From a virus: a DNA stretch of 23,370 nucleotides. Below the pieces are notes generated by a model. It saw only the letters and a program-made list of their open reading frames with translations. It made no database searches and had not been told where the DNA came from. Location: positions 1 through 23,370 of IMG/VR virus record IMGVR_UViG_3300009481_000105; one strand, given 5' to 3'. Each line of letters starts with the position of its first letter. Position 1 is the first letter of the stretch. The translations under genes were made by a program, and so were the position numbers. Below, piece by piece: positions 18,938 to 22,002 of this stretch.

Positions 18938-19666
18938 TTAAAAATCTCCATAATATCTATTTGTTTCAGATTCTAAATTCCAACATGAATAGCATCTTCC
19001 ATCATAATCATTGGATTCATATTTACCTATTTCTACATCACAATCCATACATTCATTATCATGCTTTTTTGTGTATGTTGTATCATCCCAATTATTCCAA
19101 TATCTACCCGTCCATGTTTGCAATTTGTTAGTATAATTCCAATTCTCATTTGAATACCAACAATCATCAATCCACGCACCACGTTTTTCGTTCACAATCT
19201 TAATTTCGCCACGTCTATTGAGAAATATCATTTTATCAGTACCTATATATCCATTAATCAATTCCATCATGGATTTGTTATGTATAAAATTGCTAGGTAG
19301 ATTAGAAATAAATTTACAGAACTTCATCGTATCACTAACTTTACTGTTGGCATCTGAGCATCTATCTATAACACCATTATGTACCATATAAGTATCATCA
19401 TTTACTTTATGTGGATGTGTATTGTTTAAATCAATTAACCCACTTGTAGCAATTCTAAAATGTAATACAAAATCTGTATTAACTATTTTTTCATGCCTCC
19501 TATAAAGTTCAAGATATTTATTAAATGATGTTAGTTCTTTTCTAATAATAAGTTTATCATTATTAGCGTACATAAACCCACCGCCATCCTTATTAGCATT
19601 CCAACATTTTTGTAATGCTTCATCACTAATTTTTATGTCTTTTGGTTTTAAAACCGCTACACACAT
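18938..19666 (-). CDS. Class II glutamine amidotransferase with C-terminal zinc ribbon, 242 aa
   Basis: Begins MCVAVLK, so Cys2 becomes the N-terminal nucleophile after Met removal. Family motifs follow in order: NKDGGGFMY (25-33), LHFRIATSG (68-76), NTHPH (82-86), VHNG (95-98; Asn-Gly of the oxyanion site) and SDT (111-113). The enzyme hydrolyses glutamine to glutamate and ammonia. The C-terminal 40 residues add a zinc ribbon (CMDC 206-209, CYSC 225-228), not part of the standard domain. ATG 19666 has AGGAGG, and the gene overlaps the amidoligase by 10 bases, so the ammonia is probably passed to that enzyme. The product is unknown. Confidence 0.85.
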   Translation of the reverse strand: MCVAVLKPKDIKISDEALQKCWNANKDGGGFMYANNDKLIIRKELTSFNKYLELYRRHEKIVNTDFVLHFRIATSGLIDLNNTHPHKVNDDTYMVHNGVIDRCSDANSKVSDTMKFCKFISNLPSNFIHNKSMMELINGYIGTDKMIFLNRRGEIKIVNEKRGAWIDDCWYSNENWNYTNKLQTWTGRYWNNWDDTTYTKKHDNECMDCDVEIGKYESNDYDGRCYSCWNLESETNRYYGDF

Positions 19667-21096
19667 AATTCGCCTCCTATTTTAAATTTGTTATCATCTC
19701 TATAACTAAAATATTCGATTGGTAATTTATTATTGCGAAAATCCTTTTCGGCTTTTTTGGTATCGTGAAAATAATCACAAAAAAGTAATGTTTTTTCTGA
19801 ATCTATAGATTGTAAATATTCATTTACTAAATTGTAATTATTTTTTTCACAAAATCTAGTGAATGAAAATATTTCAAGATTCTCCATTTTCGCTTGTTTG
19901 GTAAATTCAAATAGTGAATGAACAAATTGTAAGTTCATAACTAGAGTATCTTTTTTTAATGTTCCTCTAAAGAATCTACATTCTACCCTATCACCTGTAA
20001 TATTTACGGCTGTATTTCTACAGTTTCTCATGTTCTTAGCAAGATATTCTGTAGTATAAATAGGTGAATAATACTTTCCTATTTTGTTATAAAATGTACC
20101 CTGTTGATTAAAGTCTCTCTTTTTGCCCTTAATCATTAATTCGACTTCGTATTTTTCACTTTTATAAATGCTTTTTGAAAATACATTTGCCCACGTTACT
20201 AGGTTTCTCATTTTTCTTCTAGAAACATCTTTTATGAATAATGGATTATGATATATAAAGATAGAGAATTTTAATAAGTGCATTGGTGTAAATGCTTTTC
20301 TATTTAATGAAAAATGCAATCCACAAGTTCTAGTATCATGGCTTCGTATTCCTTTACTTGATAAATCAAATATTGGTTGGTAGCGTTCCAAACTATTCAT
20401 CCATGCCATATAGCTTTGTGGATGTGTTACAATTTCAAATCCATAATCCAAACTTCCATCTCTTTTTATATATATAAAATCTTCGTTTACATCATCCATA
20501 GCTTTATATAAATGTTCGGCAATTTGCCCATTATTTTCATCTTGTTTTTTATTTTCTACTTCTAATTCAAATCCAATAACTTCACCTGTATTTTCATAAT
20601 GTCCAAAATTAGATTTGAATATTTGCCCTTGAAAATCATCTTTTTTCAAATTTTTATCTAACATCCTGTTATAAGAATTATATCCTACACTTACCAATTT
20701 CTTGGTAATAACATTTTGATTTTTATTAAATTGTAATAATTTAATTATAGGTGTCGGTTTGTAAGAATAATCATGTATCATTCCATCGTTATTTTCGGAA
20801 CAATGCATACAAATTCCATCATCATCCATTCCTACATTATCATAACTATAATTTTCGCTACATGATTCACAATAAAATGAGTTTTCTTCATAACAATCTT
20901 GACACCAATCTTCATTATCTACAGTATGGTGATTATCATCATGGGTAGATTCATCACAGTTATAGCAAGTAAAATAATGTTCATCATAACAATCTTGACA
21001 TACCTTATAATCATCAACATAAATTAAATAATCTTCATCTTCATTTTTATAATCACATAATTCACAATAATGATATTCTATTTCTTTTTTTGGCAT
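19657..21096 (-). CDS. Amidoligase (glutamine synthetase-like fold) with N-terminal zinc-ribbon array, 479 aa
   Basis: Residues 11-99 hold six CxxC knuckles (11, 33, 44, 65, 76, 96), spaced as three consecutive zinc ribbons, with acidic and aromatic residues between. After a linker, the catalytic domain matches the amidoligase_2 pattern: GFELEVE (175-181), KRDGSLDYGFEIVTHP (211-226), RTCGLHFSLN (256-265) and VECRFFRGT (371-379). These family members use ATP to join a carboxylate and an amine, with Glu and His ligating metals. The neighbour supplying ammonia from glutamine fits this. TAATG overlap with the HNH gene upstream. The zinc array may bind protein or nucleic acid. The acceptor is unknown. 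Confidence 0.8.
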   Translation of the reverse strand: MPKKEIEYHYCELCDYKNEDEDYLIYVDDYKVCQDCYDEHYFTCYNCDESTHDDNHHTVDNEDWCQDCYEENSFYCESCSENYSYDNVGMDDDGICMHCSENNDGMIHDYSYKPTPIIKLLQFNKNQNVITKKLVSVGYNSYNRMLDKNLKKDDFQGQIFKSNFGHYENTGEVIGFELEVENKKQDENNGQIAEHLYKAMDDVNEDFIYIKRDGSLDYGFEIVTHPQSYMAWMNSLERYQPIFDLSSKGIRSHDTRTCGLHFSLNRKAFTPMHLLKFSIFIYHNPLFIKDVSRRKMRNLVTWANVFSKSIYKSEKYEVELMIKGKKRDFNQQGTFYNKIGKYYSPIYTTEYLAKNMRNCRNTAVNITGDRVECRFFRGTLKKDTLVMNLQFVHSLFEFTKQAKMENLEIFSFTRFCEKNNYNLVNEYLQSIDSEKTLLFCDYFHDTKKAEKDFRNNKLPIEYFSYRDDNKFKIGGELCV

Positions 21097-21512
21097 TATG
21101 AATTTTCCTTTCTTTCATTAGCGGTAATTTCTGCATGGCATCTTACACATAAAAGTATGCATTTTTTAATTTCCTCTTCTATGTATTTATCTTTTCTAAC
21201 TCCGAACATATCAGAAACATTGAATAATTTATTATCTTCGGTGTGATGAAATTGGATTGCTTCGATTGAAAAATTTAAATGTGTTTCTTTTGAATAATTA
21301 CACATGGTACATTTTATAGTGTTTGGCTTGAATTTTTTTATTTGCTTTTCTTTTATCTTTCTTCTTTTTGCATTTTTTATAGGAGTTAAACACGCTTTAC
21401 ATTTTGATGCCTTTGATTTTGTACCATCTTTTTTAATATAACCGGCATCCCAAAAATCTGTAATTGGCTTTGTTTTTTTGCAATCTCCAATACATTTTTT
21501 ATAACTATTCAT
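21096..21512 (-). CDS. HNH endonuclease, 138 aa
   Basis: I choose ATG 21512, directly after the stop of the upstream gene (21514). A frame from 21587 would overlap that gene by 74 bases with an unlikely leader. A zinc motif lies near the N terminus (KKCIGDCKKTKPITDFW, then CKAC at 38-41). The HNH core follows: CTMC (68-71), QFHHTEDNKLF (87-97) and CVRCHAEI (122-129). It is a DNA endonuclease, often a free-standing homing enzyme in phages. Stop overlaps the amidoligase start (TAATG), so it is co-translated with the amidoligase. Confidence 0.75.
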   Translation of the reverse strand: MNSYKKCIGDCKKTKPITDFWDAGYIKKDGTKSKASKCKACLTPIKNAKRRKIKEKQIKKFKPNTIKCTMCNYSKETHLNFSIEAIQFHHTEDNKLFNVSDMFGVRKDKYIEEEIKKCILLCVRCHAEITANERKENS

Positions 21513-21513
21513 A

Positions 21514-22002
21514 TTATGAATCTCCGTTTGGTAATTTGAAAAAATCTTTTGCCCATCTTCGTTTGTGATGGTTTCTATATTTGCCATTTTCTTTAGCTAC
21601 TTCATCAATATAAATAGCAAATTCTCTAAAATATTCCTTGCCTATCATATCCTTATCTTGTGGATAAAATATTATATGTTCCTTATCATCATATATTCCT
21701 CTTTCAATAGGAATAGCTATATAATGAGATTGATTGGGTGTTATTTTAATTCTTAATGATTTACCATAAGAGGTATTTGAAATTCTAGTGTGGAATTTCA
21801 CTTGAACAGATTTATAATTTTCAATTCTATTTTTTTGGGTACTCTTTCCAATTATAAGGTCTATTCCTCTGTCGCAAATTGGCTTTGATACTTCGTACCC
21901 ATTTTCTAATAATAAACTAATTACTTTTGTTTCACCGATAGCACCTTGAACAGTTGTTGAAACTTTTAACGAACAAGTTTTTTTATATCTTTGTTTTTTC
22001 AT
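21514..22002 (-). CDS. PD-(D/E)XK endonuclease, 162 aa
   Basis: ATG 22002, with AGGAGG 12 bases upstream. Residues 20-69 carry the PDDEXK_5-type pattern: GAIGETKVISLLLENGYEVS (Glu24), PICDRGIDLIIG (Asp48) and SVQVK (65-69, Lys69). Such enzymes cut DNA, some as homing endonucleases. A strand-rich region (TSYGKSLRIKITPNQSHYIA) follows, and a basic C terminus (NHHKRRWAKDF). The first gene of the operon with HNH, amidoligase and amidotransferase; it could act on host or competing phage DNA. Confidence 0.7.
   Translation of the reverse strand: MKKQRYKKTCSLKVSTTVQGAIGETKVISLLLENGYEVSKPICDRGIDLIIGKSTQKNRIENYKSVQVKFHTRISNTSYGKSLRIKITPNQSHYIAIPIERGIYDDKEHIIFYPQDKDMIGKEYFREFAIYIDEVAKENGKYRNHHKRRWAKDFFKLPNGDS

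Follow-up and report, generated by a model that had tools for sequence, protein, structure and literature searches.

A recurrent two-gene module of a LIM-fingered amidoligase and a class II glutamine amidotransferase in phages and mobile DNA of Clostridia, with predicted amide-forming chemistry

Gene layout of the locus

The stretch of DNA analysed (the window, 23,370 bases) is a virus record as classed by IMG/VR. Its plus strand carries structural genes, including a tape measure gene, and its minus strand an early/replication block encoding a DnaD-like replication protein, NinG and an SbcD-like exonuclease. An ORF check placed four co-directional genes in positions 18938-22002, all on the minus strand (Table 1). 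The coordinates and junctions given in a preliminary description of this DNA were all recovered: a single base separates the stop codon of the PD-(D/E)XK gene (21514-21516) from the ATG that opens the HNH gene at 21512, the HNH and ligase genes share a TAATG at 21096, and the ligase and amidotransferase genes overlap by 10 bases (19657-19666). An in-frame ATG at 21587, upstream of 21512, was discounted as the HNH start because the homologue in the closest relative, L001, begins MNSYKK; position 21512 is the most likely start and gives the 1-base gap.

Table 1 Features of the four-gene stretch and the evidence for each assignment
Feature	Coordinates	Strand	Basis
Class II (Ntn) glutamine amidotransferase, 242 aa	18938..19666	-	GATase_4 match, conserved residues, GlmS/PurF profile matches
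Amidoligase with LIM-like fingers, 479 aa; carboxylate-amine ligase of GS/YbdK fold	19657..21096	-	hhalign, PF12224 in relatives, model, Foldseek
LIM-like Cys4 zinc fingers, three in tandem, at ligase residues about 10-100	20797..21069	-	Cysteine conservation, LIM profile and structure matches
HNH endonuclease, 138 aa from ATG at 21512	21096..21512	-	phrog_2255, 1.8e-19
PD-(D/E)XK-like nuclease, 162 aa	21514..22002	-	PDDEXK_5, 1e-5, 26.0 bits vs cut-off 26.1

Families, active sites and fingers of the pair

In a Pfam profile search the window ligase alone gave no direct match, a result that, taken literally, goes against the Amidoligase_2 assignment in the preliminary description. The family-level evidence nevertheless upholds it. 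Amidoligase_2 (PF12224) was matched by 46 of 53 aligned ligase relatives, and profile-profile comparison (hhalign) with genuine Amidoligase_2 members of Clostridia gave a probability of 99.1 (E 1.2e-18). An AlphaFold2 model of the ligase (pLDDT 87.8), searched with Foldseek, matched GS III (7u6o, 3.2e-5), YbdK (1r8g, 9.3e-5) and the Pup ligase PafA (4bjr, 1.7e-4), as well as Dop and plant glutamate-cysteine ligase; for GS III, YbdK and PafA the probabilities were 0.99-1.00, but TM-scores were low, at 0.2-0.37. The site residues are E177xE179, D213-G-S215, E221, G259xH261, R294, N365 and E372xR374. The motifs ExE, DGS, GxHxH and ExR are kept in the window ligase, save that Ser takes the place of the second His in GxHxH, at residue 263 (about 20308-20310); that motif is otherwise 94% conserved, and Ser stands there in 10 of 156 sequences in all. 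Judged by sequence and model, the protein is a glutamine-synthetase-fold amidoligase, kin to Amidoligase_2, with predicted ATP-dependent activity.

The zinc ribbons previously described at the N-terminus of the ligase are in place as six CxxC motifs (residues 11, 33, 44, 65, 76 and 96), but they are not generic ribbons: profile and structure matches point to three tandem LIM-like fingers. The twelve cysteines make up three Cys4 units (C11/C14/C33/C36, C44/C47/C65/C68 and C76/C79/C96/C99), and at least 10 of the 12 are kept in 132 of 156 paired ligases. LIM (PF00412) was matched by 13 of 53 ligase relatives, with no match for the window ligase alone in the Pfam search, and the ligase family profile matched the LIM structures of PINCH and CRP1 at 4.5e-7 (PINCH) to 4.7e-6. 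Seven residues separate successive fingers in the window (C36-C44, C68-C76), compared with the two-residue linker in LIM; because of this longer spacing, we call the fingers LIM-like rather than canonical LIM. The LIM fold generally serves protein contacts.

The downstream protein was confirmed as a class II amidotransferase. It matches Pfam GATase_4 at 5.1e-6, above the curated cut-off, a profile of its relatives matches GlmS and PurF in the PDB (6e-12), and the predicted fold of one relative (L015) matches the glutaminase domain of GlmS. An N-terminal Cys nucleophile and the Arg, Asn-Gly and Asp of the glutamine site are all found in the window protein, the catalytic residues being the nucleophile Cys2 (M1-C2), H69/R71 (HFRIAT), H96-N97-G98 and D112-T113. 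Conservation of Cys2, H69, R71, H84, P85 and H96-N97-G98 is at least 99% in the amidotransferases of 156 paired relatives. The C-terminal finger reported earlier is likewise present at residues 206-228 (CMDC at 206, CYSC at 225), but it is a minority feature, found in 38 of the 156.

A Foldseek match of the amidotransferase to the gamma-glutamyl hydrolase EgtC (2.3e-4), alongside the matches of the ligase to YbdK and plant glutamate-cysteine ligase, raises the alternative of add-and-remove gamma-glutamyl chemistry, in which the ligase would attach an amino acid or amine and an Ntn amidohydrolase would cleave it. Such a division of labour is found in ergothioneine biosynthesis, where a GS-fold ligase (EgtA) likewise works alongside an Ntn protein resembling class II amidotransferases (EgtC). 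The glutamine-binding residues fail to distinguish hydrolase from glutaminase activity. We consider this alternative unlikely, since the closest PDB sequence relatives are the glutaminase domains of GlmS and PurF, and no further genes of such a pathway (EgtB/D/E-like) were seen next to the pair. EgtC also differs in removing a gamma-glutamyl group and supplying no ammonia; LIM fingers are absent from EgtA/EgtC, and ergothioneine pathway genes are absent here.

Recurrence and surroundings of the pair

Relatives were fetched by ligase similarity alone, giving 161 loci (81 viral, with the window and L001 included, and 80 from genomes); the presence of an amidotransferase was therefore not a selection criterion. 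An amidotransferase gene lies directly downstream on the same strand at 141 of these loci (70/81 viral, 71/80 genome), so the neighbourhood on which the earlier proposal depended holds across relatives. Among the remaining 20 loci, pairing is in most cases interrupted by contig ends (L016, L017, L073, L089, L135, L150, L161 and L170) or by frameshifted copies (L128, L154, L159 and L169), or the copies are slightly rearranged (L027, L029, L041, L068 and L081). L101 is a genuine exception, with fingers kept and the partner missing from 5.9 kb of downstream sequence. Pairwise distances of ligase and amidotransferase are correlated, with a Spearman coefficient of 0.56 where 500 permutations gave no value above 0.09, a correlation that partly reflects the shared descent of linked genes. 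Because the arrangement recurs in about 140 loci it is not due to chance, and the pairing is real and near-obligate.

Retrieval took the best matches across nearly the whole ligase protein and therefore favours finger-bearing relatives; for this reason an independent search with the Pfam model was run over 148 Clostridia genomes. In this PF12224 draw, the partner accompanied all 7 fingered ligases (L194-L197, L200, L226, L227) and none of the 18 fingerless ones, within fetched flanks of mostly about 5-6 kb. L198 is a decayed copy with neither fingers nor amidotransferase. A strict requirement of fingers for pairing was ruled out, as L005, L006, the L061 group and L075 have degenerate fingers yet keep the amidotransferase. 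When a single origin of the fingered clade was tested, the tree needed 3 changes, with deep forks open and long branches present. The ligase of L004 (the C. difficile phage/plasmid version) has neither fingers nor amidotransferase, yet falls among fingered ligases (97/77 support); this suggests joint loss of both, on tree support that is not strong.

Two further arrangements were seen around fingerless ligases. In Clostridia (L183-L188, L190, L202-L205), a fingerless Amidoligase_2 gene often lies beside a second, diverged amidoligase-like gene instead of an amidotransferase. In the C. difficile phage and plasmid (L004, L208), the fingerless, partnerless ligase adjoins DUF1653 and pentapeptide-repeat genes.

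The preliminary description had joined all four genes into one operon with the two nucleases as partners, and this part did not survive comparison. Among the 161 loci, HNH lies beside the pair only in the window and L001, and PD-(D/E)XK only in the window, counts that rule out the nucleases as functional partners. A single restriction- or defence-like operon of nucleases and pair would fit the tight co-directional packing in the window, but is contradicted by these neighbourhoods and is highly improbable. Neither the pair nor HNH matched in PADLOC, so the pair was also rejected as a known defence system; the PD-(D/E)XK protein, which had no match in a PDB search, weakly matches one PADLOC candidate model. 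No dedicated NCBIfam model was matched by the pairs tested.

An ATP-grasp gene occurs at 0 of the 161 loci and a cyclotransferase gene at 3, with neither in this fragment, and the pair therefore stands alone. Many phages carry it, as does mobile DNA of gut Clostridia; recombinase, integrase or relaxase genes lie nearby at 58 of the 80 genome loci (Clostridia), consistent with carriage by mobile elements.

Other genes were seen close to the pair. A DUF960 (PF06124) gene often precedes it on the same strand (44/80 genome loci), as in the Ruminococcus flavefaciens locus L133 and in L051, where it is directly upstream of the ligase; it was not found in the window and is a candidate third component in Clostridia. 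A DUF3846-type gene adjoins the pair at L144:5248-5640 (Pfam-confirmed), L119:5330-5668 and L010:5932-6315, and in further Clostridia elements.

Known systems and predicted chemistry

Amidoligase-amidotransferase pairs are already known in phages, namely in Marvin, in MEP402 and in the LUZ24/phiEco32 cassettes; the founding papers on them reportedly came from Iyer in 2009 and Mageeney in 2012. In mycobacteriophage Marvin (gp105/gp106) and its cluster S relatives, an amidoligase is likewise followed by a class II amidotransferase. The proteins are homologous to those of the window but distant in sequence (26% and 25-26%); the ligase has four N-terminal CxxC motifs, its fingers are reduced, and both Marvin genes are annotated 'glutamine amidotransferase domain protein'. 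Methylophilales (OM43) phages MEP401/402 have the gene order and 10-base overlap of the window in gp06/gp07, with an amidotransferase 38% identical to that of the window; they differ in their degenerate ligase fingers and replication-gene neighbours. PMC10580990 names the MEP401/402 pair, notes such pairs in Marvin and OM43 phages, and cites Iyer and colleagues for the proposal from comparative genomics, in agreement with the preliminary description.

In the 'peptidoglycan modification' cassettes of LUZ24, phiEco32 and RIO-1, Amidoligase_2 and a class II amidotransferase lie in an early phage operon, as here. These cassettes also encode a COOH-NH2 ligase, an ATP-grasp enzyme and a cyclotransferase, which the window pair lacks, and LUZ24 gp18, the one cassette ligase checked, has no CxxC and weak similarity to the window ligase (1e-4). 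Membership of the pair in the LUZ24/phiEco32 cassettes was rejected on the ATP-grasp and cyclotransferase counts given above. A longer cassette occurs in Stenotrophomonas phage StenR_269 (L007), comprising cyclotransferase, amidotransferase, GS-like, ATP-grasp and amidoligase genes and two tRNA genes.

Cell-wall remodelling is the hypothesis published for the related multi-gene cassettes (phiEco32, LUZ24 and RIO-1) in PMC5498523 and PMC10580990. Applied to the window, the pair would act on a cytoplasmic precursor of peptidoglycan and amidate one of its carboxylates, in the manner of MurT/GatD or AsnB/LtsA, and the altered wall would exclude superinfecting phages or tune lysis. Glutamine-dependent amidation of wall peptides is established biochemistry, and this explanation is compatible with cytoplasmic enzymes. 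We nevertheless regard it as rather unlikely here: the 161 loci almost entirely lack the remaining cassette enzymes, ATP-grasp and gamma-glutamyl cyclotransferase, the LIM-like fingers suggest a protein partner and not a nucleotide-linked sugar peptide, and no wall gene was seen in the vicinity of the pair. MurT/GatD and AsnB/LtsA share the logic of a glutaminase coupled to ATP-dependent carboxylate activation, but their ligase folds are unrelated (Mur ligase and ATP pyrophosphatase), and GatD is not class II.

The conserved glutaminase residues, the conserved GS-fold ligase site, the 10-base overlap and the correlated divergence lead us to propose a glutamine-fed amide synthetase. We favour, at a probability of roughly 0.6, a two-subunit, glutamine-dependent enzyme that would be carried as self-contained two-gene cargo and act on a cytoplasmic target. 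The single ammonia-to-amide machine of the preliminary description is thereby strengthened by the near-obligate pairing, intact catalytic residues and correlated divergence. Carboxylate amidation at the expense of glutamine is a well-supported prediction from the sequences. In the proposed pathway, Cys2 of the amidotransferase, exposed by removal of Met1, would hydrolyse glutamine to release ammonia, while the GS-fold ligase would draw on ATP and Mg to turn a carboxylate of the acceptor into an activated acyl phosphate. Reaction of the acyl phosphate with ammonia from the amidotransferase would then form a primary carboxamide. The LIM-like ligase fingers, and the additional finger that some amidotransferases carry, would make protein-protein contacts, holding the two subunits together and/or capturing a protein or peptide acceptor. 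In phages and mobile elements the cargo would modify a cytoplasmic host or phage target, and the nearby nucleases would be unrelated neighbours. A joint model was made of the natural in-frame read-through pair of L015 (stop read as Gly, 52-row alignment); its domains are good, but its pTM is 0.57, and no confident ligase-amidotransferase interface is therefore assigned.

Since the fingers are LIM-like, a protein partner or substrate is the leading guess, and we infer that the acceptor is probably a protein or peptide. The roles suggested in the preliminary description, shielding of phage DNA or disarming of a host factor, are conjectural. The pair might instead amidate a low-molecular-weight carboxylate, including a nucleotide or DNA base, given that GS-fold ligases and class II amidotransferases act mostly on small molecules and that in MEP402 a few short genes separate the pair from primase, helicase and polymerase genes downstream. 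This seems distinctly unlikely, as no base-modification enzyme was present among the window ORFs searched and three LIM-like fingers would be hard to account for. Within the amide synthetase reading, we tentatively raise as one possibility a mobile, LIM-fingered enzyme that would capture a particular protein of host or phage and amidate its carboxyls with glutamine as ammonia donor; if true, it would be a phage enzyme that amidates proteins and differs from the known post-translational modifiers.

The LIM-fingered two-gene form, which does without the ATP-grasp and cyclotransferase of the cassettes, seems new in its scale and in its autonomy. The literature searched contained no paper mentioning 'LIM domain' together with 'amidoligase', and PADLOC and dedicated NCBIfam models gave no match for the pairs tested. 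An anecdotal gene pair, usually annotated hypothetical, can thus be defined as a two-component module of very wide distribution and clear predicted chemistry. If proteins or wall peptides are amidated, it would offer phages and mobile elements a common route to rewire Clostridia and other hosts.

Some loci hold two ligase and two amidotransferase genes (L156, L025, L027, L029, L039 and L078). The copies in L156 (2136-4197 and 5737-8198) are clearly two consecutive, diverged pairs, which suggests duplication or different targets.
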